Below are positions 11,054 to 52,700 of a DNA stretch of 64,000 nucleotides, piece by piece. Each line of letters begins with the position of its first letter. Positions within the stretch are counted from its first letter, which is position 1. A program made the position numbers and the translations under genes. The stretch is from Comamonadaceae bacterium OS-1 (lineage in GTDB: Bacteria > Pseudomonadota > Gammaproteobacteria > Burkholderiales > Burkholderiaceae_C). The notes beneath the pieces were generated by a model that saw only the letters and a list, made by a program, of their open reading frames with translations, ran no database searches and had not been told where the DNA came from. Location of the stretch: the NCBI GenBank assembly GCA_027923965.1, contig AP026969.1, positions 3,162,001 through 3,226,000 of the forward strand, in the 5' to 3' direction.

Positions 11054-11104
11054 AATCGGCACTTAGCGCTTATTCCATAAGCGCAAGAAGCTACTAATTT
11101 AGGA
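11054..11104 (+). repeat. Palindromic repeat copy A, leader of hpaE
   Basis: The gap before hpaE is almost wholly a copy of the dispersed repeat: AATCGGCACTT, the stem-loop AGCGCTTATTCCATAAGCGC, then AAGAAGCTACTAATTT. The copy runs into the hpaE ribosome-binding site AGGAG, so this stem-loop would sit in the hpaE message just before translation starts. Confidence 0.8.
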
Positions 11105-11110
11105 GTAAAC

Positions 11111-12586
11111 ATGTCTATTGACACCCTCACCATCGCAGGCCACAGCGTCTCGCCCCACCACTACATCAACGGCCAGCGCGTGGCATCCGCCGAGCGGTTT
11201 GACCTGCACTGCCCCATCGACCAAAGCCTGCTGGGCCAGGTCAGCGAAGGCACGGCAGCGCATGTGGATGCGGCCATCACCGCAGCCCAGGCTGCCTTCC
11301 CGGCCTGGGCCGCCCTCACCGCCGCCGAGCGCAAGCCCTACCTGGACCGCTTTGCCGCCGAGATTGGCAAACGCTCCGAGGCGTTCTGCCAGGTCGAATC
11401 GAACGACGCGGGCATCCTGCTCTCGCGCATGCAGCACGGCGTGGTGCCGCGCGCCATGCTCAACCTCACATGGTTTGCCGAGCACGCGCTCACGCTGCAA
11501 GACCGCCCCATCGAGACCGAGCAGGCCACCCACATCGTGCGGCACGACCCGGCAGGCGTGGTGATCATCATCACGCCGTGGAACGCGCCGCTGATGCTGG
11601 CCACCTGGAAGCTGGGGCCCGCGCTGGCCGCAGGCAACACGGTGATCGTCAAGCCGCCGGAATGGGCGCCGCTGACCAGCAGCCTGCTGGCCGACTGCGC
11701 GCACGCTGCGGGCCTGCCGCCAGGCGTGTTCAACATCGTGCAGGGCAGCGGTGCCAACACCGGGGCCAAGCTGGTCAGCGACCCGCGCCTGGCCCGGGTG
11801 TCGTTCACCGGCTCGGTGCCCACCGCCAAGTGGATTGCCCAGGCGGCGGGCGCGAACCTGGTGCCCTGCAGCCTGGAGCTGGGCGGCAAGTCGCCCTTCA
11901 TCGTGCTGAAAGATGCCGACATCGACAACGCCGCCGCCACCGGCGCGCTGATGTACCGCAACGCCGGCCAGGTGTGCCTGGCGGGCACGCGCTTTCTGGT
12001 GCACCACCAGGTGCGTGACGCGTTTGTGGCGGCGATGCGCGGCTATGTGGAGAAGCTGCACGTCGGCGACCCGCGCGATACCGCCACCGAGATCGGCCCC
12101 ATCATCCATCCGCGCCAGGTGGAGCGGGTCAAGGGCTTCGTCGCACGCGCCCTGGCGGACGGCGCCGAGCTGCTGTGGGGCGGCAAGCCGCACCCCTTCG
12201 GCGCGCAGTATTTCGAGCCCACCATGCTGACAAACCTGCGGCAGAGCAGCGAAATCGTGCAGAACGAAGTCTTCGGCCCGGTGCTGACGTTGCAAACCTT
12301 TGCCAGCGATGCCGAACTGATAGCTCTGGCCAACGGCACCGACTACGGCCTGGGCGGCGTGTGCTACGGCGAAGTGGCGCACGCCACCGCCATCGCCGAG
12401 CAGGTGCGCACCGGCTTTATCTGGGTCAACAGCTTCGGCATCCGCGACCTGGCCGCCCCCTTTGGCGGCATCAAACGCTCGGGCGTGGGACGCGAGGGCG
12501 GCGACTGGAGCTTTGAGTTCTTTTGCGACGTAAAGGACGTGGTGGTGCCCAAAAAGCCTTTCCGCGCCAGCTTCAGCCATCGCTAG
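11111..12586 (+). CDS. hpaE: 5-carboxymethyl-2-hydroxymuconate semialdehyde dehydrogenase
   Basis: An NAD-dependent aldehyde dehydrogenase that oxidises the ring-cleavage product of homoprotocatechuate to the corresponding acid. The 491-residue protein has the Rossmann-type segment FTGSVPTAKW, the general base Glu256 in LELGGK and the catalytic Cys289 in NAGQVCLAG. The ALDH fold alone does not give the substrate; the assignment rests on its place between hpaI and hpaD and on length (E. coli HpaE is 488). AGGAG stands before the ATG, inside the tail of a palindromic repeat. Confidence 0.88.
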   Translation: MSIDTLTIAGHSVSPHHYINGQRVASAERFDLHCPIDQSLLGQVSEGTAAHVDAAITAAQAAFPAWAALTAAERKPYLDRFAAEIGKRSEAFCQVESNDAGILLSRMQHGVVPRAMLNLTWFAEHALTLQDRPIETEQATHIVRHDPAGVVIIITPWNAPLMLATWKLGPALAAGNTVIVKPPEWAPLTSSLLADCAHAAGLPPGVFNIVQGSGANTGAKLVSDPRLARVSFTGSVPTAKWIAQAAGANLVPCSLELGGKSPFIVLKDADIDNAAATGALMYRNAGQVCLAGTRFLVHHQVRDAFVAAMRGYVEKLHVGDPRDTATEIGPIIHPRQVERVKGFVARALADGAELLWGGKPHPFGAQYFEPTMLTNLRQSSEIVQNEVFGPVLTLQTFASDAELIALANGTDYGLGGVCYGEVAHATAIAEQVRTGFIWVNSFGIRDLAAPFGGIKRSGVGREGGDWSFEFFCDVKDVVVPKKPFRASFSHR

Positions 12587-12596
12587 ATATACAAAC

Positions 12597-12650
12597 CAAA
12601 ACAGCCTCTAGCGCTCTATCCATAAGCGCAACCAGCTACAAAATAAGGAG
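12597..12650 (+). repeat. Palindromic repeat copy B, leader of hpaD
   Basis: This copy reads GCCTCTAGCGCTCTATCC, ATAAGCGCAACCAGCTACAA, then AATAAGGAGTAAATC. It occupies the hpaE-hpaD gap and ends in the hpaD ribosome-binding site AAGGAG. Copies A and B stand in the same relation to the next gene and end in nearly the same bases (GGAGTAAA). Confidence 0.8.
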
Positions 12651-12656
12651 TAAATC

Positions 12657-13580
12657 ATGGGAAGCATCGTTGGCGCAGCCATCGTCTCGCACCACCCCGG
12701 CCTGATGCAGTGCGAGGAGTTTCGCCGCCTCATGGGCAACGGCGACGACTCGGACCTGATCCCCGGCTACGCCCGGCTGCGCCGCAAGATCGCCGCTGCC
12801 CGACCCGACGTGGTGGTCATCTTCGACAGCCACTGGTTTACCACCGGCTACCACCTGGTGGATGGCGCGGCCCACTATGCCGGCAACTACATCTCGGAAG
12901 AAATGCCCTGGTACCTGCACGGCGTGCCCTATGCCTACCGGGGCCACCCGGCGCTGGCGTTGGCCATTGAAGAAGCCTCGCGCGCCCAGGGCGGCTACAA
13001 CCGCGTGATCGACAACCCGGCGCTGGGCAAGCAGTACGCCACCATCAACCTGGTCAAGCAGTTGCGGCTGGAGCAGTCGGACACGCCGGTGCTCACGGTC
13101 AGCTCCTGCCAGAACTGCGACTGGCCGCACTTTGTGAAGTCGGGCGAAGCCATTGCCGAGGCGGTACGCCACAGCGGCCTGCGCGTGGTGCTGCTGGGCT
13201 CGGGCGCGCTGAGCCACAAGTTCAATGGCATCGACTGGAAGCCCACCCACCCGCGCATCTTCCACGAGAGTAACGTCTCGCGGCCCGAAAACATCGCCAG
13301 CGACAAGGCCGCCATTGCCCTGATGGCGCAAGGCCGCCACGACACCGTGCTGGAGCGCTGGAACGACGACTACCGCAAAAAGCCCTGGGAAGCCTTTGGC
13401 GCGCACTACCTGCAAATGCTGGGTGCCATGGGCGGGGCGGCCTGCCGCGCCAAGGGCGAAGCCCTGTCGGCTTACGAGAACGCCCGCGGCACCGGCAACA
13501 TCCATATCTGGTTTGAGGTCGGCACCCATGCAGATGCGGATGCACAGAGCAGCCCGTCCACAGCATTACAGGGAGCCTGA
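12657..13580 (+). CDS. hpaD: Homoprotocatechuate 2,3-dioxygenase (LigB type)
   Basis: A class III extradiol ring-cleavage dioxygenase of the LigB superfamily that would open 3,4-dihydroxyphenylacetate at the 2,3 position. His12/His13 in the N-terminal SHHPG and His59 in FDSHW are the likely iron ligands. The HpcB-like segments LLGSGALSHKF and YLQMLGAMGG are present. At 307 residues it is slightly longer than E. coli HpcB (283). It sits two bases before the NmrA-like gene. The neighbours hpaE, hpaG, hpaH and hpaI support the assignment; a related catechol substrate cannot be excluded. Confidence 0.87.
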   Translation: MGSIVGAAIVSHHPGLMQCEEFRRLMGNGDDSDLIPGYARLRRKIAAARPDVVVIFDSHWFTTGYHLVDGAAHYAGNYISEEMPWYLHGVPYAYRGHPALALAIEEASRAQGGYNRVIDNPALGKQYATINLVKQLRLEQSDTPVLTVSSCQNCDWPHFVKSGEAIAEAVRHSGLRVVLLGSGALSHKFNGIDWKPTHPRIFHESNVSRPENIASDKAAIALMAQGRHDTVLERWNDDYRKKPWEAFGAHYLQMLGAMGGAACRAKGEALSAYENARGTGNIHIWFEVGTHADADAQSSPSTALQGA

Positions 13581-13582
13581 CC

Positions 13583-14473
13583 ATGCGCACCATTGCCATC
13601 ACCGGTGCTGCAGGTAAGTTCGGGCGCGCCGTCCTCGACCAGCTTGGGCCACTGATTCCCGCTGGCGTGCACGTGCGGGCCTGCACGCGCGACCCCGCCC
13701 GGTTCGACCCGGGCCAAGCCCGCGTCGATGCAGTGCAGCGGGCGGATTTCGCCGACCCCGACGCGCTGGACACCGCATTTCACAATGTCGACACGCTGCT
13801 GCTGGTGTCGATCGAAGGCGAGGACGACTTGCGGATTCGCCTGCACGGGCAGGCCATCGCCGCGGCGGCACGCACCGGCGTGCGCCGCATCATCTACACC
13901 AGCTTCTTCGATGTGGCACCCGAGTCGCCCTCGGTGGTCGCGCGGGTGCATCGATTGACCGAAGAGGCCATCCTCCACTCGGGCTGTGCCTACACCTTTC
14001 TGCGCAATGGTCCGTATGTGGACAACATCGCCGTGTCCATCGCCGCCGCGGCGCGCACCACCGGCGTTTTCCCCATGGCCAGCGGTGCTGCGCGTATGCC
14101 GTTCATCGCGCGGGCCGACCTGGCCCTGGCCGCCGCAAGCGCGCTGACCGCCACGCCCGCAGGCAACGAGATCTACCAGCTCAGCGGCTCGGAGCTTTTG
14201 ACCTACCAGGCACTGTGCGACGAGATTGGCGCGGCTGTCGGCGCACCGGTGCGCCATGTCGCGACCACCGAGGAAGAGTACCGCGCCGAGCTGGATGCAC
14301 AAGGCTTGTCGCCCGCTCTGCGGGACCGCCGCATCGCCTACGTGCAGGCGATGCGCCTGGGCTTCATGACCGCGTTGACCCCCGATTTCCAACGGCTGGT
14401 CGGCCGCGCACCGCGCACCATGCACGAGGTGGTTCCCGTGCTGGATCTTTCGCCGGGCCAGGCTGCGCACTGA
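13583..14473 (+). CDS. NmrA-like NAD(P)-binding reductase
   Basis: A 296-residue atypical short-chain dehydrogenase of the NmrA/quinone-oxidoreductase-2 (YtfG) type. The N-terminal ITGAAGKFG is the dinucleotide-binding motif, and the hydrophobic TLLLVSIEG and IIYTSFFDVAP strands follow. Proteins of this group either reduce quinones or act as redox sensors. It begins two bases after hpaD, so it is co-translated with the ring-cleavage enzyme. One possibility is that it limits redox cycling of catechol-derived quinones; this is inference. The substrate is unknown. Confidence 0.83.
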   Translation: MRTIAITGAAGKFGRAVLDQLGPLIPAGVHVRACTRDPARFDPGQARVDAVQRADFADPDALDTAFHNVDTLLLVSIEGEDDLRIRLHGQAIAAAARTGVRRIIYTSFFDVAPESPSVVARVHRLTEEAILHSGCAYTFLRNGPYVDNIAVSIAAAARTTGVFPMASGAARMPFIARADLALAAASALTATPAGNEIYQLSGSELLTYQALCDEIGAAVGAPVRHVATTEEEYRAELDAQGLSPALRDRRIAYVQAMRLGFMTALTPDFQRLVGRAPRTMHEVVPVLDLSPGQAAH

Positions 14474-14509
14474 GCCCCCCGAGGCCACATTCTTAAAAAA
14501 GGAGACAAC

Positions 14510-15502
14510 ATGACATCGATCGACCGACGCCAATTCACCACCAGCCTGGTCGCCAGCGCAGCCGCGCTGGCCTGGCCTTCGCTAGGGCATGCGGAGGAAC
14601 CCATTGCCATACTCAAGATACTGTTTGGCTATCCACCAGGCGGGGTCAGCGAGCTGGTGACGCGCGGCATCGGCATGAAGATGACCCCCGGTTACGCCAA
14701 GGTCGCCATTGTGGACACCAAGCCCGGTGCGGCGGGCCGTCTCGTCATGGAATCGGTCAAATCCGTGCCAGCCGACGGCAGTGTGGTGCTGGTGACCCCC
14801 TCATCGGTCGTATCGATGTACCCCCATGTCTACAGCAAACTCCACTACGACCCGTTCACGGACATCACCCCGGTCAGCACCATCTGCGAATTCGTCCACG
14901 CACTGGCGGTGGGGCCAGGGGTGCCCGAATCGGTCAAATCGCTGGCCGACCTGGTGGCATGGTTCAAGGCCAATCCGGACAAAGCCAGCGTGGCCAACCC
15001 CGGCGAGGGCTCTTTGCCGCACTTCCTCACCATGCTGCTGTCCAAAGCCACGGGCGTGAAGATCGAGGCGATTGGTTATGCCGGTGGCCCGCCAGGCGTG
15101 AAGGACACGGTGGGTGGACAGGTGCCCGCCATGATCGCCAACGAGGCCCAGTTCATCAACCTGTACCGCGAGGGCAAACTGCGCTTGCTGGCCACCTCCG
15201 GGGCACAACGCTCCCCGTTTTCGCCCAACGTGCCGACCTTCGCTGAACAAGGTATCCGCAACATCCAGGTCAGCGAGTGGATTGGCATGTTCGTCCCCGC
15301 AAAAACGCCTGCGGCAGTGACGGCGCGCATCAGTATGGCCGTGCGTGCCGCGCTGGAGCAGCCTGATCTGGTGGAGAGTTTTGGCAAGTATGCGATCCGC
15401 CCGGTGTCCAGCACACCCGAAGAGCTTGGCAAACGCCTGCGGGCCGACTACGAGTATTGGGCTTCCACCATCAAGTCCACCGGATTTACACCCTTATCCT
15501 GA
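14510..15502 (+). CDS. Bug-family periplasmic receptor (TctC type)
   Basis: A 330-residue solute-binding protein of the Bug (Bordetella uptake gene)/TctC family. The leader MTSIDRRQFTTSLVASAAAL ends in GHA, with a pair of arginines before the hydrophobic stretch, so Tat export is possible. The family landmarks PGGVSELVTR, NPGEGSLPHF and MIANEAQFINLYREGKLRLL are present. Bug proteins bind carboxylates, often aromatic acids. No TctA/TctB membrane genes lie in the window, so this is an orphan receptor. AAGGAGA precedes the ATG. Confidence 0.9.
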   Translation: MTSIDRRQFTTSLVASAAALAWPSLGHAEEPIAILKILFGYPPGGVSELVTRGIGMKMTPGYAKVAIVDTKPGAAGRLVMESVKSVPADGSVVLVTPSSVVSMYPHVYSKLHYDPFTDITPVSTICEFVHALAVGPGVPESVKSLADLVAWFKANPDKASVANPGEGSLPHFLTMLLSKATGVKIEAIGYAGGPPGVKDTVGGQVPAMIANEAQFINLYREGKLRLLATSGAQRSPFSPNVPTFAEQGIRNIQVSEWIGMFVPAKTPAAVTARISMAVRAALEQPDLVESFGKYAIRPVSSTPEELGKRLRADYEYWASTIKSTGFTPLS

Positions 15503-15514
15503 GCAGGAGACACC

Positions 15515-16465: not shown

Positions 16466-16502
16466 CCCCCGTTTTTCACACTACAACAAAGGAGACATTC
16501 CC

Positions 16503-17498: not shown

Positions 17499-17531
17499 TG
17501 ACAACCTCACTTGCTTCACGTTAAGGCGAAC

Positions 17532-19413: not shown

Positions 19414-19535
19414 GGCTACATCATGGCAGATTCAGACATTCCGATTCTGCAACCCTGGACTTCCAAATTGCCACTGGATAGTTACATGGGCATGTCTAAA
19501 AATACTGCAACCACCGACAAACAGGAGACCCGCCC

Positions 19536-21598: not shown

Positions 21599-21624
21599 AC
21601 ACACACAACAACGGAGACACCCCC

Positions 21625-22602: not shown

Positions 22603-22738
22603 GCCTGTGAGTAGAGCAATGGGACTGATTTACGCTGAAAACCTGCGCAAATTCCCACATCCACGCAGCAAGTTGCATTAAAGCTGCGCACGCTTTGCGA
22701 AATGATTGCGCCATTCCTTTTTATAACGAGACAACACC

Positions 22739-26245: not shown

Positions 26246-26271
26246 GCTCTGCGCAGGCTGACGCTACCTGA
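26225..26271. repeat. 26-bp tandem duplication at a convergent gene end
   Basis: GCGCAGGCCGACGCTATCTGA (first 20 bases at 26225-26244, ending at the maiA stop) is repeated with two changes at 26251-26271. The second copy contains the last codons and stop of the histidine kinase on the other strand. Confidence 0.6.
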
Positions 26272-29200
26272 CTTCGCAATCGCGCAACAGCCCCAGCGCC
26301 GCTTCAAAGTCAAAGCCCTGCACGGCATCGCGCAAGGCGGTAAAGCGGCCCGGAAACGCTGACTGCAGCAGGCTTGCGTGGGTGGCCAGCAGATCGACGG
26401 CATCGCCTTCGTCGTTCTCCAGCATGGCCACCAGCTGGTCGCACACGGCGCGCAGTTGCTCGGGGTCCACAGCCACCGGCGGTGCCGCCGCCACCGCAGG
26501 CAAGCGGCGCTGCAACTGGGTCAGGAGCGCGTGCAGTGGCTGCACCACGGCCAGTGCCAGCAGTTGCACGGTCTCCATCGCCACGCCTTTGCGCAAAGCA
26601 TCCTCCAGCTGGCCGGCGTGGGCTTGCAGGTCGCTGGCACCCAGGCTGCCCGACACGCCTTTGCAGGTATGGGCCAGACGCTCGGCCTGGGCGTAGTCGC
26701 CCGCGTTCAGGGCGGCCTGCAACTGGGTTTCCAGGTCTTTCTGGTTGCGTACAAACAGGCGCAACATTTCCAGGTAAACATGGGGCTTGCCGTTGGCGCG
26801 GCGCAGGCCCAGGGCGGTGTCCAGCCCGTCGATGTCGCCCATGTGGGCCAGCGCAGCCTGCTCGGGGGAGGACGCATGCAGCGGCGGGGCCGGGCTACTG
26901 GGCGCTGGCACGGGCACAGCGCGAACCACCCGCCGGTGCGGTGGCACCCAGCGCAGCAAGGCGCTCCACAGCGCATCGGGAGCGATGGGCTTGGTCACCA
27001 CGTCCCGCATGCCCGCGTCCAGGCAGGCATCCTTGTCCTGCTGCATGGCATTGGCGGTCATGGCGATGATGGGCAACTGGGCGAACGCGGGCAGTTGGCG
27101 GATGGCCCGGGTGGCGGTCACGCCGTCCATCACCGGCATCTGCATGTCCATCAGCACCACATCAAAGGCTGTGGCCTGCACCTTGTCGAGCGCGATCTGG
27201 CCGTTCTCGGCCACGTCCACCACAAACCCCGCCGATTCCAGCAGTTCACGGGCCACGTACTGGTTGAATTCGTTGTCGTCCACCAGCAGCACATGGGCTC
27301 CGATGATGGTGGCCAGGCGGTCGGCCAACGGGCCCACCGGATCTTGGTGCGGCAAAGGCGGGTGGGCCTCACCCTCCAGCGCAGCGCGCAACACCGCGTA
27401 CAGCGATGCGGTGTAGATCGGTTTGACGAGCACGCCGTCCACCTCGCCCGCCTGCATCTGCTGGCCCAGCTCGTCGCGGCCAAAGGCGGTGGCCATCACC
27501 AGCCGGGGGCGGGGCGAGAGCTGCAGAGCGTGGATGCGGCGGGCCGTTTCCAGCCCGTCCATGCCCGGCATCTTCCAATCCAGAAAAACCAGGTCTATCG
27601 CTCGTCCATTCAGCGTAGCAAGCTCTATTTTTTGTAGCGCCTCCGCACCCGATGCCGCGCTGTCCACCTGCAACGGCAGGCCCGCCAGCATGTCGCACAA
27701 CAGGCTGCGCGCATGGGGGTGGTCGTCCACCACCAGCACCCGGCAGCCTTGCAGCACGGCGGGGTTCCACACGCCGCTGTCGGGCAGGGCCTGGGCGGCA
27801 TCCACGGTGCCCAGATCGGCGGTAAACCAGAAGCTGCTGCCCTGCCCCGGGGTGCTGGTCACGCCCACCTGGCCGCCCATCAGCTCGGCCAGCTTTTTGG
27901 AGATTGACAGGCCCAGCCCGGTGCCGCCGTATTTGCGGGTGGTGGACGCATCGGCCTGGTGGAAACTTTGGAACAGGCCGTCGATCTGGGCCGGGGTCAG
28001 GCCGATGCCGGTGTCATTGACGGCAATATGCAACTGGATGCGGCCGTTCCGCGGCGGTGTCTGTACCCGCACCACCACGCAGATATCGCCTGACTGGGTG
28101 AACTTGACCGCGTTGTTGGCAAAGTTGATGATGATTTGTCCCAGCCGCAGCGGGTCGCCCAGCAACTGGCGGGGCACGTCGGAGGCCACGTCGAACAAAA
28201 ACTCCAGGCCCTTGTCGATGGCCTTGCCCGAAACCAGATTGGACACATTGGCCAGCAGCACATCCAGCACAAACGGCACCTGCTCCACTTCCAGCTTGTC
28301 GGCCTCGATCTTCGAGAAATCCAGAATGTCGTTGATGATGCCGAGCAGGTGCTGGGCGGAGATGGTCACCCGCTCGATGTACTGGAACTGGCGCGGATTC
28401 AGCTCGGTCTGCAGTGCCAGTTGCGACAGGCCGATGATGGTGTTCATCGGGGTGCGGATTTCGTGGCTCATGTTGGCCAGGAAAGACGACTTGGCCTTGG
28501 AACCCTCTTCGGCCAGCAGCTTGCTCTGCTCGACCTGGGCCATCATGTCCTGTTGCCGTTCGTAGGCGGCGCGCAGTTCCCCCGCCGACCGCTCGCCGCG
28601 CGCCAGGTCCTGGGCCAGGCGGTTGGCGATCAGCGCAAAGCTCTGGCCCACCTCGCCGAACTCGTCCTTGCGGTCGATGGGCAAGGCCAGCGGGGTGTTG
28701 GCATCGTGGTGGCCCGCCGCCCGCGTGAGGGCCTGCTTCAGGGCATCAATGGGACGCAGCACCAGCACCTGCATGCCGTAGGACAGGGCCAGCACCAGCA
28801 ACGCCACCAGCACCACCATTTCCAGCACCCGGGTCCACACCAGGCGACGCAGGGCGGTCTGGATTTCTTCGTGGGTGGTCACCACGGTCACAAACCCCAG
28901 CGCCTGCACCGAGCCATCGCGGTCGATGGACAAGGGGAATTCCAGCGTGTCTTCCAGGCTGGGGTGCTTGCCGGCCAGGCTGGACACAGCGCTGGCAAAC
29001 GGCACAGCCCCCTTCTCTTCACGTACCACGATGCTGAGCACCGGAGGGTGGATCTCGGCGGCCAGGTTGCGATCCAGGGTTTCCTTGTCCAGCCGCCACA
29101 TCGGCGAGGCCAGGTTGATCTCCAGGCGCTGCTGCAGCAGGGTGCGGCTGGCCTCGTAGCGCTCCAGCAATTGGGCGCGGCTGTCGGTGTACGACAGCAC

Positions 29201-33193: not shown

Positions 33194-35344
33194 CTACCGC
33201 AGCCCCGCCCCGCGTACCTCCAGCCGCACACTGTCGAGCACCGCGCCCTGGGCATTGCGGATCTGCACCACGTGGCGGCCGGGCCAGGGCAGCCACTGGG
33301 CAGACGGGCCCTGGGCGAAGGCCTTGCCGTCTATCCACCAGCGCAGGCCGGGGCCCTCGGCCAGCAGGTCCACGCGCTGGCGGTTGGGCGGGATGTCGGG
33401 GTCCAACGCGAAGATGGTGCCGGTGGCCGGGCTGGTGATGCGGGCGGGGCGATCTTGCAAGCTTTTGAGGCCGCTCGTGCCCACCCCGTCAGCGTGAACA
33501 GCTACGGAATGCATAGCAAACTGGTTCTGCTGCGTGCCCTGCACAAACCATTCGCTGCGGGCCGCCTCGGTGCCGCCGAAGGCTACGGCCTGCTGCACCA
33601 CGCCAGGGGGCGGCGCGGGCGCACGGCTGGGCTGGGTACGGTGCAGGAAGTGCATCACGGCGGCCCAGACGGGTGCGGCGCCGGTGGTGCCGCTCACGTC
33701 CCACATGGGCGCGCCGCTGGCGTTGCCCACCCACACGCCCACGGTGTAGGCCTGCGAGTAGCCCACGGCCCAGTTGTCGCGCATGTCCTTGCTGGTGCCG
33801 GTTTTCACCGCCGTCCAGAAACGCGTGGCCAGCACGCTGTCGCTGCCGAAGGTGCGGGCGCGGGCCAGGGGGTCGGACAGGATGTCGCCCACGATGAAGG
33901 CGGCACGCGGGTCGAGGGCGGGACGGAACTGGGGTTGGGAATTGACCGTGAACGTGGTGGCGCTGGCCCGCCCACCATTGGCCAGCGCCCGGTAGGCGTT
34001 GGCCAGGTTCAGCAGCGACACCTCGGCACTGCCCAGCGCCAGGCTGTAGCCGTAGTAGCCGCCGGATTCCCTGAGTGGCAGGCCCAGCGCCACCAGCTGG
34101 TCGTGGAAGGCATCGGGCGACACCATCACCAGCGTGCGCACTGCGGGCACATTCAGCGACGCGCCCAGCGCCGTACGGGCCGACACCCAGCCTTTGAACT
34201 GGTGGTCGTAGTTTTGCGGGATGTACAGGCCGCCTGCGGTGGGGATGTGGGTGCTGGCATCTTCCAGCAGCGACGCGGCGGTGATGCGGCGCTCGGCAAT
34301 CGCTTCGGCGTACAGAAAAGGCTTCAACGTGGAGCCGGGCTGGCGCAGCGCCGTGACACCGTCCACCTCGGCGGCTGCGCTGAGTGTGCCGCTGGAGCCC
34401 ACCCAGGCCAGCACCTCGCCGCTGGCGTTGTCCAACACCACGATGGCCCCGTCTTCCACATGCCGCCCCTGCAGCTCGCGCAGTTGCTGCTGCAAGGTCT
34501 GCACGGCGAACCGTTGCAAGGGAGCGCGCAGGCTGGTAGTGACGGTGCTGGGGCCTTTCGCCACCAGCCGGGCCAGGTGCGGTGCGATGCCCTCGCTGGT
34601 GTCGAAGGCCTTGCGCTGCAGGGAGGCGGTGGTGAATAGGTCCAGCCCCGTGCAATCCGCCTTGGCCTCCACCGCCTGCAACACACCGCAGGCCCGCTGG
34701 GTGAGCTGGGCCAGCTTGGCATTGGGTGCGCGCACCAGGGCCACGGCCACCGCCGCCTCGCGCGCGTCCAGCCCGTGGGCGGCCTTGCCAAACAGGGTGC
34801 GGCTAAGCGCATCGATGCCCACCAGCTCGCCGCGAAACGGCACCAGGTTCAGGTAGGCCTCCAGAATCTGGTCCTTGCGCCAGCCGCCTTCCAGTTGCTG
34901 GGCGGACACGGTCTGGCCGATTTTCTGCACCACGCTGCGCCCGCCCGCGCCGGGCTTGAGGTCGGCATCCAGCAGCCCGGCCAGCTGCATGGTGATGGTG
35001 GAGGCTCCCCGGGTTTTGCGGTTCCACAAATTACCCCAGGCCGCAGCAGACACGGCCTGCCAGTCCACCCCGCTGTGCGCATAAAAACGCTTGTCTTCGC
35101 TGAGCACCAAGGCCGAGCGCAAGGCGGGCGACACATCCGCCAGCCCCACCCACTGGCCGCGCCGCACCGAAGCGTCGGTGCGCAGGCGCTGCAGCAGTTC
35201 GCCTTGGCGGTCGAGGACCTGGGTGTCGGAGGGGCGGTAGCTGCTTTTTATAGCGTCAAAAGTAGGTGTAGCGCTTATTCCATCAGCGCAAGAAGCTATT
35301 AAAACCGCAGCAATTGAAAATCGACCAAACCACGCGTGCGTCAT
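33194..35344 (-). CDS. pbpC: Penicillin-binding protein 1C (glycosyltransferase-transpeptidase)
   Basis: A 716-residue bifunctional peptidoglycan synthase of the PBP1C type. The glycosyltransferase domain (about residues 50-220) has SEDKRFYAHSGVDW, with the catalytic glutamate, and RGASTITMQLAGLL. The transpeptidase domain has the serine motif PGSTLKPFLY, SLN (ASLNVPAV) and KTGTS. A C-terminal BiPBP_C domain follows. The N-terminus MTHAWFGRFSIAAVLIASCA is unusual: the hydrophobic run is short and ends in IASC, a lipobox-like motif encoded by a dispersed repeat. The ATG at 35344 overlaps the stop of a 33-codon ORF. It lies in the same neighbourhood and strand as the alpha-2-macroglobulin gene, its usual partner. 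Confidence 0.92.
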   Translation of the reverse strand: MTHAWFGRFSIAAVLIASCADGISATPTFDAIKSSYRPSDTQVLDRQGELLQRLRTDASVRRGQWVGLADVSPALRSALVLSEDKRFYAHSGVDWQAVSAAAWGNLWNRKTRGASTITMQLAGLLDADLKPGAGGRSVVQKIGQTVSAQQLEGGWRKDQILEAYLNLVPFRGELVGIDALSRTLFGKAAHGLDAREAAVAVALVRAPNAKLAQLTQRACGVLQAVEAKADCTGLDLFTTASLQRKAFDTSEGIAPHLARLVAKGPSTVTTSLRAPLQRFAVQTLQQQLRELQGRHVEDGAIVVLDNASGEVLAWVGSSGTLSAAAEVDGVTALRQPGSTLKPFLYAEAIAERRITAASLLEDASTHIPTAGGLYIPQNYDHQFKGWVSARTALGASLNVPAVRTLVMVSPDAFHDQLVALGLPLRESGGYYGYSLALGSAEVSLLNLANAYRALANGGRASATTFTVNSQPQFRPALDPRAAFIVGDILSDPLARARTFGSDSVLATRFWTAVKTGTSKDMRDNWAVGYSQAYTVGVWVGNASGAPMWDVSGTTGAAPVWAAVMHFLHRTQPSRAPAPPPGVVQQAVAFGGTEAARSEWFVQGTQQNQFAMHSVAVHADGVGTSGLKSLQDRPARITSPATGTIFALDPDIPPNRQRVDLLAEGPGLRWWIDGKAFAQGPSAQWLPWPGRHVVQIRNAQGAVLDSVRLEVRGAGLR
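35246..35306 (+). repeat. Palindromic repeat copy D, encoding the PBP1C N-terminus
   Basis: The plus strand reads TATAGCGTCAAAAGTAGGTG, then TAGCGCTTATTCCATCAGCG, then CAAGAAGCTATTAAAACCGC, a close match to copy A. On the minus strand it is translated within pbpC, covering residues about 13-33, including the IASC motif. Confidence 0.8.
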
Positions 35345-35442: not shown

Positions 35443-35525
35443 GGATTCCTTTCGATGGTTTACATCCTAAGGCTTATCCGTGGTGGAGCCTGGGCGCTGG
35501 GACGGCAGACGCCAGCGCCGCCGGA

Positions 35526-35963: not shown

Positions 35964-36104
35964 GGCGATCTCCGTGATGGGTGGGTGACCAGCATCCACC
36001 TTAGCCAGCCACGCCCCGCTGCGCATCCTCCAAACGGGGGGCGCGTCCTCCTTTTGGGGGATGTTCTGGGTGCTGTCCGCCCTACCCCATGCTCCTATTT
36101 TTAA

Positions 36105-36162
36105 CATCTATAAAAGGAGCACCCTACGACGGTGGAATAAGCACAATCGGTCTATTTGATGC
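36105..36162 (-). repeat. Palindromic repeat copy J, degenerate
   Basis: On the minus strand CATCAAATAGACCGATTGTG, then CTTATTCCACCGTCGTAGGG, then TGCTCCTTTTATAGATG aligns over its length with copy E in the alpha-2-macroglobulin gene, including ATCAAAT and GCTTATTCCA. It lies just after the alpha-2-macroglobulin stop in the gap before the DUF995-like gene. Confidence 0.5.
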
Positions 36163-36176
36163 ATAAAAAAATAGGC

Positions 36177-39100: not shown

Positions 39101-42095
39101 CGTCTTTGGCGGTGACGACCAGCTCCACCTCGCCCGCCTCATTCAAAGCGGCTTCGCACAGCAGCAGGCCGCGGCTGTCGCTCTTTCCGCTGCACACCGC
39201 GCCCAGGTCCTTGGTGCTGGTTTTGTTGTCGTAGGTGTAGAAGCCGCCCACCATGCGCTTGCGGCTGGTGGTGACGATGCGGGCGGTGGCGCGCACTTCC
39301 AGGGCCACGTCGGCCTGCGGCTTGCCCGTCAAGTCCAGCGCCAGGGCCTGGAACTTGAGCTTCTGGCTGGTCGATACCCAACCTTCGGTCTTGATGCCTG
39401 CAATGACGGCGGCGGGCCACAACGTTTGGGTGCTGCGGATGGTTTGCACCTCGCCGTTGGGGTCGGAATAGCTGGCTTCGAGCAGCAGGTCCTGCGGCTG
39501 CGGGCTGGGCGTGAGTTTGTCGATGGTGGTTTTGCCCGCGCCATTTTTGTCCAGCGTGAGCGCCAACTTGTCGGCCACCACGCGGCTGTCTTCGCTGGCG
39601 GTGGCTTCTTCTTCTTCGCCCTCGCCTGCTGCCTCGCGCTTGCCGCGTGGGGCGGCAAAGCTGAAAGCCTCGAAGTCGCTGTAGCTCAGATATTTGCCGC
39701 GCACCAGGGCCGACACGCGCACCGGCAGGTTGGCCGCGCCGCCCCCGGCCACGTAGTTGATTTGCACATCCACCGGCACGCTGGTGGCGTGGACCAGCGG
39801 CTTTTTGTCGCTGGGGCTGACGCGGCCCTCCAACACCGGCAGGCGGAACTCTTCGACCCGGAACTGGCCGGTGCTGAAGGTTTTGTCATCGCCCGGGCCT
39901 TTCAGCTCCACGCTGTACACGCCCAGCTTGGCGGTGGGCGGAATGCTCCAAGTGCTCTCGGCACTCTGCCCGCCGGTGGCGGTCTTGCGCCAGGCCAGGG
40001 GCTGGCTGGTCTGCTGGCCGCTGCCAACGTGGGTGATGACCAGGGTGTCGGGCTGCGTGTCGGCCAGACCAAAGCCTTTGCGGGTCTCGGTGCGCAGCAG
40101 GTGCTTCATGGAGACGGTTTCGCCCGCGCGCAGCAGCATGCGGTCGAAGACGGTGTGAGCGCGCTCGTCCGGCTCTGCGCTGCGGCTGGTGGGCAGGTTG
40201 AAGCGCCAGGGCTCGATGCCGCGGTTCCAGTCGCTCCAGGTGAAGGCCATGTCTTCCACCCCACCCTGTGTGCTGCGGGCGCTGACGAAATAGGCCTGGC
40301 TGTAATGGCCCTCGTCCTGGCAATTCGGGGCCTCGGGGGGGATGTCGGGCACATAGGCAATGCCCTGGGCGTTGGTGGTGGCGTGGCCCAGCGCGTTGCC
40401 GCGGCAGTCGGACACCTGCACCTGGGCGTTGGCCACGGGCAGGCCTTTGTCCAGGGTGGTGACCCAGGCCAGCGCGTTCTCGCGGCCCAGCTTGAAGTGC
40501 ACGCCCAGGTTGGTCACCAGGGCCGAGGTGCGAACGAACATGGTGCGTTTGCCGCCATGGCGCTCGTCCAGCAGCGAGGCACCCAGCTTTTGCGAGGCGA
40601 TTTCGACCACGTGGAAGCCGGGGGTCAGCGGAATGCCCACCACCTCGAAGGGGCGCGGGTCACCGCTCGCAGGCTGGGGCAGGTCCAACGTCTTCACGCC
40701 CGGCTGGCCTTGCAGCAGGGACAGCATGCGGCTTTGCACATAGCCCTTGCCTTCATCGGGCAGCACCTTGGGCAGCGGGCCTTTGACCTGGGCGGCGGCC
40801 AGCTTGCGGCTGACGTTGTAGCTGTCGAACTGCTGCACTTTGGCGTACCAGGCGATGATGTCTGCATCGCTGCGCGGCTGCAGGGTGCTGACCTTGCCAG
40901 CAGCGTTCAGGGCCTGAATCTTCAATTGCGCCTCCACATTGCGCAGCGTCACCGGCAGCAGGGCCACGCCATTGGGCTCGGCAAAGCGCTCCACGATGCC
41001 AAACGGCGACGCGGCAAACTTGGCCAGCGGCGGCATGGCCCCGGTGCCCACCTGCAGGGGGAAGCTGGCGGCGTTGGCCAGGCTGCGGCCCGACGCGTCT
41101 TTGAAGCCCGCGGGCAGGGCCAGCGTGTACCGGGCCTGCTCGGCAAACGGGCTTTTGAAGCTGATGCTGCTGACCACGGCCTCGCTGTCGCTGTCTTCCT
41201 CGTCAAAGGTGGGCGCAACCGTGTCCTTGCCCGAGGTGAGCTTGATGCCTTCCAGCAGCTTGCGGGCCACGGGCGCGTTGAAGGCCAGGCGCATGGGGCG
41301 GATGGGCAGGCAGGCGCTTTGGGCGTTTTCGCGCTCGCAGCTGAAGTTGGCGGCAAACGGCGCACGCACGGTGTAGTCGAAGCGTTTTTCCACCGTGTTG
41401 GGCACGCCGCTGGGGGTGGCCACGCCTTTGCCGTAAACCAGTTGCACGGTGGCACTGGGCGGCAGGCGGCGGTTGCAGGCCAGGGTGAGGTAACGCAACG
41501 GCTCCTTGGCGGCGGCCTTGTCCAGGCCCTGGGCTTTGAGCAGGTCGGCCCGGTCCTTGCCGTCCAGCAGCCGCACGGCCACGCGCTCGCCCAGGCCGTC
41601 TACTGCGCACCACATGTTCGCCTGCACGCTGGCCAGCGTGGCCGCGCCGTTGAGCGTGAGGGTGAAGAACTGTTCTTCGTCGATCTGGTCACCGCCGTCA
41701 TAGGGGCGGATGTTTTGCACAAACGGGCCACCACTATTTAATTTATAGCTACTCACGCCCTTGGAATAAGCGCTGGGTGCCGATTTGATACCTAAAACGG
41801 GTTGCAGCGTGCAGCGCACACCGGGCGGCAGGTCGTTGGCAAATTCAAACGCCCATTCGCGGTCGCTGGTCCAGCGGCCCGTGCCCTGGCTGGCCTGCGC
41901 ATCATTGCACTGCAAAGTGGCCGGAGCCGGGGCCTTGGGGTCGCCGAAGTTGACGGCGCTGCCATCAAACTGCACCACCACCTGGCGGATACGGGCCACC
42001 TCGCCCTGGGGGGAGACACGGGTGATCTGGGCGGCATGCGCAACGGCAGCGGTAGCCAACAGGCAGCAGGCGATGAAGAGGGTATGGATACGCAC
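36177..42095 (-). CDS. Bacterial alpha-2-macroglobulin with thioester
   Basis: A 1972-residue secreted protease trap of the YfhM-type bacterial alpha-2-macroglobulin family. The signal peptide MRIHTLFIACCLLATAAVAH ends in AA without a strict lipobox. Repeated macroglobulin-like domains fill the N-terminal two thirds. The alpha-macroglobulin domain around YGRKAVAAGGGGGHSGTREL leads to the thioester motif CLEQ with Cys1485, followed by the alpha-helical thioester domain. A C-terminal domain with FRSYYEYLPKGVVKMEYTIR is receptor-like. Attack by a protease would trigger the thioester and trap it in the periplasm. The GTG start has GGAG upstream. pbpC lies downstream, as in many proteobacteria, suggesting joint defence and repair of the wall. 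It is longer than E. coli YfhM (about 1650). Confidence 0.93.
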   Translation of the reverse strand: MRIHTLFIACCLLATAAVAHAAQITRVSPQGEVARIRQVVVQFDGSAVNFGDPKAPAPATLQCNDAQASQGTGRWTSDREWAFEFANDLPPGVRCTLQPVLGIKSAPSAYSKGVSSYKLNSGGPFVQNIRPYDGGDQIDEEQFFTLTLNGAATLASVQANMWCAVDGLGERVAVRLLDGKDRADLLKAQGLDKAAAKEPLRYLTLACNRRLPPSATVQLVYGKGVATPSGVPNTVEKRFDYTVRAPFAANFSCERENAQSACLPIRPMRLAFNAPVARKLLEGIKLTSGKDTVAPTFDEEDSDSEAVVSSISFKSPFAEQARYTLALPAGFKDASGRSLANAASFPLQVGTGAMPPLAKFAASPFGIVERFAEPNGVALLPVTLRNVEAQLKIQALNAAGKVSTLQPRSDADIIAWYAKVQQFDSYNVSRKLAAAQVKGPLPKVLPDEGKGYVQSRMLSLLQGQPGVKTLDLPQPASGDPRPFEVVGIPLTPGFHVVEIASQKLGASLLDERHGGKRTMFVRTSALVTNLGVHFKLGRENALAWVTTLDKGLPVANAQVQVSDCRGNALGHATTNAQGIAYVPDIPPEAPNCQDEGHYSQAYFVSARSTQGGVEDMAFTWSDWNRGIEPWRFNLPTSRSAEPDERAHTVFDRMLLRAGETVSMKHLLRTETRKGFGLADTQPDTLVITHVGSGQQTSQPLAWRKTATGGQSAESTWSIPPTAKLGVYSVELKGPGDDKTFSTGQFRVEEFRLPVLEGRVSPSDKKPLVHATSVPVDVQINYVAGGGAANLPVRVSALVRGKYLSYSDFEAFSFAAPRGKREAAGEGEEEEATASEDSRVVADKLALTLDKNGAGKTTIDKLTPSPQPQDLLLEASYSDPNGEVQTIRSTQTLWPAAVIAGIKTEGWVSTSQKLKFQALALDLTGKPQADVALEVRATARIVTTSRKRMVGGFYTYDNKTSTKDLGAVCSGKSDSRGLLLCEAALNEAGEVELVVTAKDAAGNRIQAAASVYVTKQGELWFGGENHDRMDLLPEKKSYQPGETAQFQVRMPFRFATALVAVEREGIIQTQVVQLNGQDPTVRVQIKEGWGPNVYVSVLALRGRLREVPWYSFFTWGYKAPREWWTSFWYEGREYVAPTALVDLSKPAFRLGVAEIRVGTQAHQLDVSVKADKESYPVRGQAKVTINVKLPNGQPAAHAEVALAAVDQALLELMPNSSWNLLDAMLQRRAWGVETSTAQMEIIGRRHYGRKAVAAGGGGGHSGTRELLETLLLWNPKVQLDANGQAVVAVPLNDALTTFKIVAVADASTGLFGTGSTSIHATQDLQIISGLPPLVREDDQFRAQITLRNTTQKAMKVLVAPRATLLNLEQQTVDIPAGEAKEVAWTVTAPAQLAQTRAEAILWEVEAKDTLGGARDALKIRQRIIPAVPLTVQQATLVQVDGTFTLPVAPPADALPGRGGLRLALQPTLAEGLPGVRDWFANYPFACLEQKTSKAIGLRDAKLWQTVVAQIPSYLDSDGLASYFPPRDGEANRGSDTLTAYLLAASDEAGGLNPAFALSDEVRAPMERGLIAFVEGKIQREFWSPRKDLDVRKLAAIEALSRYGKAQARMLGSITIAPNQWPTHAVIDWLNILKRVTDIPKRDERLAEAQQILRARLSFQGTKMVFSTEQDDYWWWLMHNGDDNTARLILAVLTDPAWKQDMGRLANGFISRQQHGAWSTTTANLWGGLALEKFSAQFEATPVAGVTKAALGAATASVDWSKVDRVPATDTPHQTTAFGAPATPGNLRNNRMFLPWSKDTLSVTQQGTGKPWLTLQSVAAIALKAPFNAGYQIKKTIQPVEQAVKGQYTRGDVLRITLEVNASADMTWVAITDPVPGGATILGSGLGRDSEIATQGEKRSGSGWPAFEERSFESFRSYYEYLPKGVVKMEYTIRLNNVGDFALPPSRVEAMYAPEMFGEWPNVRVKVVGAKSEK
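41734..41790 (-). repeat. Palindromic repeat copy E, inside the alpha-2-macroglobulin gene
   Basis: The minus strand reads TATCAAATCGGCACCCAGCG, CTTATTCCAAGGGCGTGAGT, AGCTATAAATTAAATAG. It is translated as IKSAPSAYSKGVSSYKLNS (residues about 102-121), between two family-like segments near the protein start. Confidence 0.75.
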
Positions 42096-44745: not shown

Positions 44746-44750
44746 GGATG

Positions 44751-47429: not shown

Positions 47430-47433
47430 GTCG

Positions 47434-48396: not shown

Positions 48397-48435
48397 ACTG
48401 CCTCCGTTATTGTTATAGATTAAACCGGACTACGC

Positions 48436-49167: not shown

Positions 49168-49235
49168 GTTTGTATACTAAATCAGAATAGTGGCGCACCA
49201 CAACGACAACCCTGCGCCGCACAGGGAATTTAAAG

Positions 49236-49301
49236 AAAATCGGGCTCTCGTGCTCATCCATCCAGCACAAGCAGCTATATTTTCCGTAGCAAACCGATTT
49301 T
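49236..49301 (+). repeat. Palindromic repeat copy F
   Basis: The copy reads AAAATCGGGCTCTCGTGCTC, ATCCATCCAGCACAAGCAGC, TATATTTTCCGTAGCAAACC, GATTTT. Its outer ends AAAATCGG/CCGATTTT form an 8-bp stem, and GTGCT/AGCAC an inner one. It covers the stop codon of the DUF971 gene and could act as that gene's terminator or as the leader of ubiE. Confidence 0.8.
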
Positions 49302-49713
49302 AGTGGCTGCCGCAACCCTTGGCGGCTTTGCCGGGCATGGGCGTATCGCGGCTGGCACCGGCTGCGGCCAGGCGGGCTTCGTAGTCGGCCCACAGCTTGT
49401 CTTGCTCCCTACCCAAAAAGTACAGGTACTCCCAGGTGAAGATGCCGGTGCTGTGGCCGTCGGAGAACGCAGGCTGCACGCCGTAGTTGCCCACCGGCTC
49501 CAGGCCGACCAGGGTGACTTCGCGCTTGCCGGTTTGCAGGGTTTCCTGCCCCGGGCCGTGGCCCTGCACCTCGGCCGACGGTGAGTACACGCGCATCAGC
49601 TCGAACGGGATGCGGAACACCGCGCCGTCGGAAAACGTGACTTCCAGCGCCCGCGACAGGCCGTGGACGGTAATATCTTTAGGGGTAGGCGCGCCCGCCT
49701 TCAAGCCCGCCAT
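49300..49713 (-). CDS. DUF971 family protein
   Basis: A 137-residue protein with the DUF971 fold (the N-terminal domain of gamma-butyrobetaine hydroxylases): ITVHGLSRALEVTFSDGAVF, then IPFELMRVYSPSAEVQGHGP and FTWEYLYFLGREQ. It ends with a short cysteine-containing tail (AAKGCGSH) that could bind metal. Its start overlaps the stop of the FAD/Fe-S gene by one base (TGATG). It lies ahead of ubiE, as in many betaproteobacteria. The function is not established; a Fe-S or quinone link has been suggested for relatives by context only. Confidence 0.9.
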   Translation of the reverse strand: MAGLKAGAPTPKDITVHGLSRALEVTFSDGAVFRIPFELMRVYSPSAEVQGHGPGQETLQTGKREVTLVGLEPVGNYGVQPAFSDGHSTGIFTWEYLYFLGREQDKLWADYEARLAAAGASRDTPMPGKAAKGCGSH

Positions 49714-52700
49714 CAGACTAAAACCCGCTCAATGCCACCATGGTTGGCTTGCGCCACGTAGGTGGGTAGCCAGTCCTTGCCCAGGATCTGGTTGGCCATC
49801 TCGACCACGATGTAGTCGGCCTCCAGCAGACCGTTTTGCAGGTCGTTGCCGTAGCGGCTCAGGCCCTGCAGGCAGCTGGGGCAACTGGTGAGGATTTTCA
49901 CGTTGTCCTTTTCAGCCAGGTTACCCATGGCGCGCAGCTTGGTTTCGTCGTTGCGCAGCTCTTCTTCCTTGCGGAAGCGGATTTGCGTGGAGATGTCGGG
50001 CCGGGTCACGCCCAGGGTGCCGGACTCGCCGCAGCAGCGCTTGCTCTCCAGCACCTGGTCGCCCAGCAGTGCTTTGACCGTCTTCATGGGCTCCTGCAGC
50101 TTCATGGGGGTGTGGCAGGGGTCGTGGTAGAGGTAGCTGCCACCGTTGTCCAGCGTAATGCCCTTTTCCAGCAGGTATTCGTGGATGTCGATGATGCGGC
50201 AGCCGGGGAAGATCTTGTCGAACTCGTAGCCTTGCAGCTGATCAAAACAGGTGCCGCAGCTCACCACCACGGTCTTGATGTCCAGGTAGTTCAGGGTGTT
50301 GGCCACGCGGTGGAACAGCACCCGGTTGTCGGTGATGATCTTGTCGGCCTTGTCGAACTGGCCGCTGCCCTTTTGCGGGTAGCCGCAGCACAGGTAGCCC
50401 GGCGGCAGCACGGTTTGCACCCCGGCATGCCACAGCATGGCCTGGGTGGCCAGGCCCACCTGGCTGAACAGGCGCTCGGAGCCGCAGCCGGGGAAGTAAA
50501 ACACCGCCTCGGATTCGCTGGTGGTGGCCACCGGGTTGCGGATGATGGGCACGTAGTCGCTGTCTTCGATGTCCAGCAGGGCACGGGCGGTCTTTTTGGG
50601 CAGGTTACCCGGCATCTTCTTGTTGATGAAGTGGATCACCTGCTCCTTGATGGGCGCAGTGCCCACCGTGGCGCGGGGCGCGGCGGTCTGCTTCTTGGCG
50701 AAGCTGCGCAGCAGGTCGTTGGCCAGGCGCTGGGCCTTGAAGCCCACACCCACCATGGCCGCCCGGGCCAGCTTGATGGTCTCGGGATTGGTGGCATTCA
50801 GGAAGAACATGGCGGCGGCATTGCCGGGGCGGAAGGTTTTCTTACCCATCTTGCGCAGCAGGTTGCGCATGTTCATGGTCACGTCGCCAAAGTCGATCTT
50901 CACCGGGCAGGGGGTCAGGCACTTGTGGCATACGGTGCAGTGGTCGGCCACGTCCTCGAACTGCTCCCAGTGCTTGATGCTCACGCCGCGGCGGGTCTGC
51001 TCTTCGTACAAAAAGGCTTCCACCAGCAAGGACGTGGCCAGAATCTTGTTGCGCGGGCTGTACAGCAGGTTGGCGCGCGGCACGTGGGTGGCGCACACGG
51101 GTTTGCATTTGCCGCAGCGCAGGCAGTCCTTCATGCTGTCGGCAATCGCGCCGATATCGCTTTGCTGCATGATCAGCGACTCGTGGCCCATCAGCCCGAA
51201 GCTGGGGGTGTAGGCATTGGTCAAATCGGCAAAAATAGAGCCCCCACGCTCGGCACTGGCGTGTCCTCCCTGCCCCCCATGGGGGCGCATTTCACCTTGG
51301 GGCGGCCCGGCGGTGAAACCTAGAGCCAAATTTGGCTCTAGCGCTGATCCATCCAGCACAGGCAACTGCGAATTCCGTAGCAACTTGCCTTTATTGAAGC
51401 GGCCTTCGGGATCGATGCGCTGCTTGTAGTCGGTAAACGGCTGCATCTCGGCATCGCTCAAAAACTCCAGCTTGGTGATGCCGATGCCGTGCTCGCCCGA
51501 GATCACGCCGTCCAGGGATCTAGCCAGCGCCATGATGCGCTTGACGGCACCGTGCGCGGTTTGCAGCATTTCGTAGTTGTCGCTGTTGACCGGCAGGTTG
51601 GTGTGCACATTGCCATCGCCCGCGTGCATGTGCAGGGCCACCCAGACCCGGCCCTTGAGCACGGTCTTGTGGATGGCGGTGCACTCATCCAGGATGCCCT
51701 TGAAGGCCGCGCCGGTGAAGATGTTTTGCAGGCCTGCACGGATCTGCGTCTTCCAGCTGGCGCGCAGCGTGTGGTCTTGCAGCTGCGGGAACAGGGTTTC
51801 CACCCCGTCCAGCCAGCCCTGCCACAGGGCGCGGGTCTCGGCCACCAGGGCTAGGGCCTGCGCAACCCGCTCTTCCAGCAGCTCAGGCGAGGGAATATCG
51901 CCCTCCTCGTCACCCTTGCCCAGCGGCAGGTTGCCTTTGCTGAAAAAGTCTTGCAGCGCATCGCACAGCTCCAGCTTGTTCTTCAGGCTGAGCTCGATGT
52001 TGATGCGCTCGATGCCGTCGGTGTACTCGGCCATGCGCGGCAGCGGGATCACCACGTCTTCGTTGATTTTGAAGGCGTTGGTGTGGCGGCTGATGGCGGC
52101 GGTTTTCTTGCGGTCCAGCCAGAATTTCTTGCGCGCCTCGGGGCTGATGGCGATGAAGCCTTCGCCGGATCTTGAGTTGGCAATGCGCACCACCTCACTG
52201 GTGGCGCGGGCTACGTCGTCGGCGTTGTCGCCCGCGATGTCGCCAAACAAGGCCATCTTGGGCAGGCCGCCGCGCTTGGACTTGGTGGTGTAGCCCACGG
52301 CTTTCAGGTAGCGGTCGTCCAGATGCTCCAGCCCGGCCAGCAGCACGCCGGTGCGCTTTTGCTCGGCGAACATGAAGTCTTTGATCTCGACGATGCTGGG
52401 CACCGCGTTCTTGGCATCGCCAAAGAACTCCAGGCACACGGTGCGGGTGTGCGCGGGCATGCGGTGCACCACCCAGCGGCCGCTGGTGATCAGGCCGTCG
52501 CAGCCTTCTTTCTGGATGCCGGGCAGGCCGCTGAGGAATTTGTCGGTCACATCCTTGCCCAGGCCCTCCTTGCGGAAGGTGCGGCCCGGGATGTCCAGGC
52601 GCTCGGTGCGGATCTTGGTTTTACCGTCGGCCTCGAAGTACTGCAGCTCGAAGCTGGCCATTTCCACGTCGTGGATCTTGCCCAGGTTGTGGTTCAGGCG

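Follow-up and report, generated by a model that had tools for sequence, protein, structure and literature searches.

The core of the repeat described here, a palindromic element of about 65 bp dispersed through a 64,000-nucleotide stretch of the 5.12-Mb chromosome of Comamonadaceae bacterium OS-1 (G000:C1:3162001-3226000, hereafter the window; the genome is called G000), was already published in 2017 as an unexplained motif of Acidovorax. PMC5217627 gives the motif pair GCTTAT(N)5AAGCG in Acidovorax ebreus TPSY with 114 copies, of which 107 are intergenic and 44 convergent, generally <50 bp from gene ends, and files it as a potential novel motif; the repeat core, GCTTATTCCATAAGCG, fits it exactly. 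The section concerned deals with a 16-bp spaced motif, and the full element, the reading frames of the five in-gene copies, the dialects, and the distribution over the family do not appear in it. The same source lists the pair ATAGCT(N)22CAAAAG in Polaromonas naphthalenivorans CJ2 (125 copies, 18 in genes and 34 convergent). As described there, ATAGCT plus 22 bases fits the reverse-strand layout of our repeat, but the Polaromonas motif ends in CAAAAG where the repeat has CTAGAG. Beyond PMC5217627 we recognized no other paper on this repeat in a search that was weak on subscription journals, and PMC3733652, on tagged palindromes, contained none of six betaproteobacterial terms. Core strings returned 103 papers, and the 30 of them that were listed appear unrelated judging from their titles.

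Three better-known classes of repeat share some of its features, as far as the accessible descriptions go. Like the repetitive extragenic palindromes (REPs) that accompany REP-associated tyrosine transposases (RAYTs) (PMC2817692, PMC8049555), it consists of many short palindromes, mostly intergenic and of genome-specific sequence, in genomes with a single-copy Y1 gene. It is a high-copy palindrome dispersed as single units, as REPs are; it is not strictly extragenic, with 41 of 180 copies inside called genes, and its length, the lack of a convincing Y1 link, and the concerted change at common sites further set it apart. Rickettsia palindromic elements (RPEs) are translated in frame inside unrelated genes (PMC10969869), as copies of our repeat are. 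RPEs measure ~150 bp, whereas our repeat is shorter, belongs to another bacterial class, is mostly intergenic, and is read in several frames; unlike RPEs as described, some of its coding copies add no length. Finally, BRE (PMC3110155) is a dispersed betaproteobacterial repeat with some copies in coding sequence and with hosts that include Comamonadaceae. It is ~90 bp long, has a mean GC content of 69% in Bordetella, is often tandem, and reaches at most 29 copies per genome, whereas the repeat studied here is ~65 bp long with 34-62% GC (range of model matches in the window and at orthologous loci) and stands as a single copy in 132 of 134 occupied gaps. Our reading, held with moderate confidence, is that it is an old non-autonomous REP/RPE-like repeat that became fixed at orthologous sites, with a core that undergoes concerted renewal, probably through copying between copies.

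Fixed sites and a genome-specific core

Information content over 140 copies, nine of them read on the wrong strand, fell to background outside columns of about -2 to 68; the element covers ~65 bp. The layout is wTTTATAAnAAATnGGCCTCT, a 21-bp palindromic core, and AGCTAY-N7-TAGCAA. The core had its standard length of 21 in 141 of 171 cores found with a looser matrix, and all 105 listed matches to a flank-only pattern, in eight of nine genomes, were 54 nt long although 44-61 was allowed (control: 0). Three models were used: R1, a covariance model of 65 positions built from 29 seed copies chosen with a palindromic pattern; a full position matrix from 131 G000 copies; and a core-masked matrix, which scans contiguous DNA without using the core and thereby avoids selection on it. 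Controls for the matrix scans were the same DNA reversed.

Copies of the repeat occupy the same sites in related genomes. Where both flanks of a G000 copy could be placed, the orthologous site was occupied in 19 of 19 cases in G003 and in 13 of 14 in G002, the two flanks of the fourteenth G002 site giving no joint place. Presence was judged at two-flank sites; of the sites placed by one flank only (13/32 in G003 and 15/29 in G002), three and five occupied ones, respectively, entered the pairs below.

Inheritance is site by site for the outer parts, whereas the core follows a genome-specific dialect at these common sites. In 18 G000-G002 pairs, identity of the two outer parts was 0.780 and 0.795, vs. 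0.583 and 0.653 when copies were re-paired (0 of 2000 re-pairings as high in each case), and core identity was 0.608 vs. 0.582 (20 of 2000 as high). The core scored for the dialect of its own genome in 17 of 18 G002 copies and in 17 of 18 G000 copies. Likewise, 17 of the 22 G000 copies paired with G003, which is nearer to G000 than G002 is, scored for the G000 dialect. Core renewal postdates the divergence of the congeners.

Abundance, gene context, and candidate partners

The first-pass annotation of the window had proposed, by eye, a dispersed family of at least eight copies of 50-60 bp. All eight were recovered above the window background and the reversed control, and a ninth was added; their positions held, but the ends shifted by 3-16 bases and the extent grew to ~65 bp (copy A is 11044-11108). 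A profile search of the genome and its relatives, which had been suggested as a check, found copies far above chance. The core pattern with ≤3 mismatches matched 194 times forward and 189 times in reverse in G000 (backward control: 1 and 0), these being largely the same places since the pattern is nearly its own complement. R1 returned at least 150 copies in G000 (150 being the number scored out of 3090 candidates; weakest at E = 2e-8). The core-masked scan found 99 copies in 432 kb of G002, where contigs had been chosen for earlier matches so that density may be high, 74 in 480 kb of G003, and seven in the window, with none in the reversed control; 144 kb of outgroup and non-carrier DNA held no place scoring ≥12. 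By extrapolation, a genome would hold between several hundred and roughly a thousand copies.

The repeat is restricted, in the genomes searched, to the family of the window (Comamonadaceae by named records). R1 matched 17 of 40 genomes: G000, all seven other members of its genus (one, an incomplete assembly, by a single weak match only), 9 of 16 further members of the family, and 0 of 16 genomes of other families. Under stricter filters, two of 200 genomes of the order matched, G000 and another of the same family; three other family members shown had no match, and for 178 further non-matching genomes the family was not shown. An exact 31-base pattern occurred in four records among named genomes (Comamonas, Giesbergeria, Acidovorax, and a Comamonadaceae bacterium), and a plasmid collection gave two records; Diaphorobacter is also among the carrier names.

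Gene calls came from a simple script based on codon usage and not from an annotation pipeline. The 180 core-masked copies fell into convergent (46), co-directional (73), and divergent (18) gaps, inside called genes (41), and at sequence ends (2). Among gaps ≥20 bp, the share that held a copy was 46/79 for convergent, 71/345 for co-directional, and 17/119 for divergent ones. A flanking stop codon was a median of 9 bp away (≤20 bp in 118/165), vs. 71 bp for a flanking start (≤20 bp in 28/109). Of 150 listed R1 copies in G000, 140 were covered by gene context: 43 lay between two plus-strand genes (++), 41 were --, 39 +-, 12 -+, four inside a gene, and one at an end. The contrast between 4 of 140 inside genes for R1-chosen copies and 41 of 180 for core-masked ones suggests that coding copies are more diverged.

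This clustering behind stop codons and in convergent gaps would fit transcription terminators or mRNA 3′-end hairpins kept by selection. Such hairpins would not be expected inside gluQ, mutL, a pccA-like gene, and the other called genes that hold copies, and orientation relative to co-directional genes was even (38 same, 35 opposite). The stems, too, are weakly supported by covariation. Inner-stem pairing in G002 was 0.694 vs. 0.665 with arms re-dealt (0 of 1000 as high), but in G003 it was 0.812 vs. 0.798 (64 of 1000 as high), which leaves the signal unclear, and pairing in the second hairpin showed no excess (930 and 568 of 1000 re-deals as high in G002 and G003, respectively). We consider the terminator explanation improbable. 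A fixed RNA structure was rejected on the same grounds, together with the finding that a two-hairpin structure on the 29 palindrome-selected seed copies did not rise above shuffles. An Rfam scan of the window returned only a tRNA, and the repeat had no match at the gathering threshold.

A further explanation is that these are ordinary REP elements mobilized by a single-copy Y1 transposase of the RAYT type. Five carriers (G000, G002, G003, G004, and G006) have one Y1 match each, and in G000 and G003 a copy of the repeat lies at the Y1 stop codon. On the reverse strand, the hairpin is preceded by [A/G]TAGC(T), with A in about two thirds and G in about one third of 140 copies (nine of them read on the wrong strand), and this comes near the GTAG tag that PMC2817692 gives for REPs. 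Yet a Y1 gene of the same type is present in two genomes that R1 does not match, G008 and G014, whereas G007, with 131 R1 matches, has no Y1 match in an assembly that is only 71% complete. At the Y1 loci (L313-L322) the gene is mostly bordered by motifs of its own, of the GGGGTCAGA or TCTGACCCC type, and about a fifth of all co-directional gaps hold a copy, so that finding one at the end of the Y1 gene says little; the share of copies inside genes does not suit an extragenic element either. We therefore regard this explanation as rather unlikely and the Y1 gene as a candidate partner only, with a weak link. At the same loci, a long gene of the same orientation lies downstream of the Y1 gene, mostly at a distance of up to ~180 bp.

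Copies inside protein-coding genes and in the window

In-frame coding copies of such a palindrome in a betaproteobacterium, as suggested in the first-pass annotation, are borne out, although coding copies are not the main setting: 137 of the 180 copies are intergenic, near gene 3′ ends, as REPs are. Nor does one reading frame prevail. The 41 coding copies, counted with orthologous copies taken separately (sites E and G in three genomes each, the site at 33455 in two; Table 1), are read in sense 0 (16), antisense 1 (11), sense 1 (6), antisense 0 (6), and sense 2 (2), with none in antisense 2. The 135 G002 and G003 copies outside genes are open most often in antisense 1 (74), followed by sense 1 (34), sense 0 (32), and antisense 2 (28), with one in each of the others, and this openness explains part of the frame choice. 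The ten host proteins that were scanned against Pfam include a glutamyl-Q synthetase (GluQ), a PccA-like carboxylase, CobU, SelO, SCO1, a competence protein, and MutL, in which the copy lies between domains.

GluQ shows the clearest length gain and, among the coding sites aligned to outgroups, is the only one with an element-sized gain. For gluQ and the pccA-like gene, 30 loci were fetched from 60 genomes searched. In 14 of the 30 gluQ loci the site carried the repeat in frame and was matched by R1 and by the masked matrix alike (scores 24.9 to 67.8); these loci had 23-38 residues between flanking motifs, vs. 10-19 in 12 loci without a match. Four more loci (G050, G048, G041, and G012) had 28-44 residues and no repeat match, and their long loops are perhaps decayed or unrelated. 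The repeat was present in gluQ in 12 of 13 genomes with at least 24 R1 matches (the exception being G005, with 25) and in none of eight with 0-2. In GluQ of four genomes of other families (G025, G026, G034, and G056) the flanking matches were six bases apart against 23-24 residues in the query, a gain of 21-22 residues, or 63-66 bases, in the carriers. This gain is old since it is common to several genera. In an AlphaFold2 model of G000 GluQ (mean pLDDT 87.1), all 19 residues below 50 lie at 154-172, inside the element-encoded stretch of about 152-173, and the stretch is thus predicted to be a disordered loop, in line with the earlier guess that such sites are probably surface loops, linkers, or termini.

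The other coding sites that were compared with orthologues behave differently from GluQ. At site E, proteins from other families (L080, L083, and L085) align without a gap, and within the family L072 has three more residues and L077 and L086 one fewer. The PccA-like protein of G028, from another family, aligns ungapped as well, that of G055, also from another family, is ~6 residues shorter, and no element-sized difference was seen among the PccA-like orthologues, some family members differing by a few residues. These ungapped alignments are the observation most at odds with plain insertion. At site G the gain falls short of the element's length: among eight outgroup loci, seven have GKLL or GKLM, 2-3 residues, and then a conserved [AG][DN]L (G030 has six), against 14 residues in G003. 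The repeat spans 22 residues here and extends into conserved ones on either side, the G000 protein has a further 35 residues beside it, and in L112, L115, and L120, family members for which no repeat is listed at this place, the linker measures 6-11 residues. The DNA of this site scored 33.9 bits with R1 in G003, 29.5 in G017, and 29.3 in G019. The clean insertion expected at four host proteins of the window was accordingly not found at E, nor at C, where comparison with the G003 orthologue showed no length change, and at G only a longer linker was seen. The open frames themselves held for all four of C, D, E, and G, and they are likewise open at the corresponding sites of G003.

Since E and the PccA-like protein align with repeat-free orthologues without element-sized gaps, their likeness to the repeat could be chance similarity of coding sequence. 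This we hold to be highly improbable. No place scored ≥16 in 976 kb of reversed DNA, and the 144 kb of outgroup and non-carrier DNA was equally clean at its lower threshold. Furthermore, the DNA of site E matched R1 with 50.2 bits in G000, 48.7 in G002, 45.1 in G007, 44.4 in G003, 32.7 in G022, and 31.3 in G017, and in five genomes the left half of its core is the commonest form of the respective genome, CTTAT in G000 and G003 and CATAT in G002, G004, and G007. The comparison proposed as a refutation thus speaks at E against an insertion, and the reversed-DNA null speaks against chance.

Table 1. The nine copies of the repeat in the window, with R1 and full-matrix scores
Copy	Position	Strand	Context	R1 (bits)	Matrix	In matrix training set
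A	11044..11108	+	Intergenic, upstream of gene at 11111	72.9	93.9	Yes
B	12589..12653	+	Intergenic, upstream of gene at 12657	51.3	71.3	No
C	27576..27640	+	In frame, hybrid histidine kinase gene 26264-29278 (minus)	None at E ≤ 10	15.7	No
Ninth	33455..33519	+	In frame, PbpC gene 33194-35359 (minus)	23.0	27.9	No
D	35249..35313	+	PbpC N-terminus	58.4	67.8	Yes
J	36102..36166	-	Adjoins alpha-2-macroglobulin-like gene	None at E ≤ 10	26.3	No
E	41731..41795	-	In frame, alpha-2-macroglobulin-like gene 36177-42095 (minus), residues 101-122	50.2	63.6	No
F	49228..49292	+	Intergenic, between ubiE (48436-49167) and gene 49300-49713	41.7	66.1	No
G	51319..51383	+	In frame, linker of DUF3683/FAD/Fe-S protein 49713-53729 (minus), residues 783-804	23.7	25.5	No

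The best non-member place in the window had a matrix score of -10.5, and the best place of the reversed window scored -37.3. Copies C and J are decayed, C being the weakest of the nine. Copy C lies in a stretch that is receiver-like by eye; Pfam reports two Response_reg stretches in the protein, the one printed being at residues 663-773. The ninth copy falls between the transpeptidase and BiPBP_C matches of PbpC, and its orthologous place in G003 gave 63.9 bits with R1 and no length change. Copy D encodes a PbpC N-terminus that resembles, by eye, a signal peptide, in a frame that is open in G002 as well. A second copy with such an N-terminus, again judged by eye, belongs to an SCO1-like protein in G003 (L302:152-763) and is independent of D. 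Copy J is part of a stretch without a G003 match. The site of copy F is occupied in G002 and G003 too, the outer parts being nearly identical and the three cores different.

At the right ends of A (11101-11106) and B (12646-12651) stands AGGAGT, the apparent Shine-Dalgarno sequence of the next gene's start. The tRNA gene at 2592-2665 ends where synteny with G003 breaks off, and nothing in 80 kb of the corresponding G003 region matched 2669-5757 or 6835-22733; 2669-22733 is likely a G000-specific island next to the tRNA gene. Between D and the alpha-2-macroglobulin-like gene (35305-36193), the DNA without a shared match measures ~0.9 kb in G000, ~7 kb in G002, and ~40 bp in G003, and the place beside copy D may be an insertion hot spot.

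How the core may be renewed

Gene conversion was proposed as a motor of REP evolution in the 1980s. In the history that we propose, the high-copy repeat would have spread long ago among some members of a single family and then become fixed at its sites. It would have been tolerated where it did little harm: behind stop codons, in convergent gaps, and in open-frame loops, linkers, and protein N-termini. Since then, other copies would have served as templates for a concerted renewal of its core, in a process like gene conversion and perhaps started at the hairpin, and the same copying could overwrite similar host sequence without adding length, as may have happened at E and at the PccA-like site. 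Copying between copies explains unity within genomes and difference between them.

Pairs of near-identical cores exceeded column shuffles (14 vs. 2.0 in G002 and 43 vs. 3.0 in G003), which leans toward copying. Since an excess is also seen in the outer left part (26 vs. 0.5 pairs in G002, 6 vs. 0.1 in G003), the surplus of cores does not decide the matter and may reflect subfamilies.

Alternatively, the repeats could be recognition sites of a host protein that binds DNA or RNA or serves in uptake, the dialect tracking its changed specificity through point mutations. Selection by a changed partner protein would explain why most copies differ from each other: a core differed from that of its nearest neighbor copy by a mean of 3.9 bases in G002 and 3.3 in G003, yet column preferences are shared among the copies. 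Conservation of the sites among congeners fits recognition sites, and repeat-like sequence at E and in the PccA-like gene without an element-sized insertion fits selection on a motif. On the other hand, several changes would have to be fixed at hundreds of sites while the flanks are still ~78-96% identical, the element-sized gain in GluQ is unexpected for a binding motif, and the copies are long and diverged. Recognition sites are in our judgment an unlikely explanation.

Several observations besides the excess in the outer left part weigh against concerted renewal of an inserted repeat. The dialect of G003 overlaps that of G000 (of 22 G003 copies, 12 score for G003, nine for G000, and one near zero), and orthologous G000-G003 cores keep a memory of their site, with an identity of 0.771 vs. 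0.677 on re-pairing (22 pairs; 0 of 2000 as high). The G000 copies of the pairs were chosen with a model that contains the core and are biased toward the G000 dialect, whereas their G002 and G003 partners were core-masked. No donor-recipient tract was caught among the copies compared, and no empty site was seen in a close relative. Among the coding sites aligned to outgroups, an element-sized gain is confined to GluQ; site G shows a net gain of ~12 residues, and its linker also varies in length among family members without a match.

Going beyond concerted renewal as such, it is possible, and we put it forward tentatively, that the repeat is maintained mainly by overwriting in place rather than by transposition, hairpin-triggered copying into the central 21 bp of hundreds of fixed copies, which would give each species its own dialect, being joined by an occasional capture of look-alike host sequence. 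If true, such overwriting would alter the amino acids of protein segments, as well as intergenic DNA, with no base added.

It is an old question whether REP-like repeats owe their persistence to transposition, selection, or gene conversion. In this repeat, sites that several close relatives have in common can be compared: their outer parts record vertical descent and their cores report on renewal, which makes the question testable by sequence alone. The repeat is also a counterpart, in betaproteobacteria and at high copy number, of the palindromes that encode protein segments in Rickettsia.

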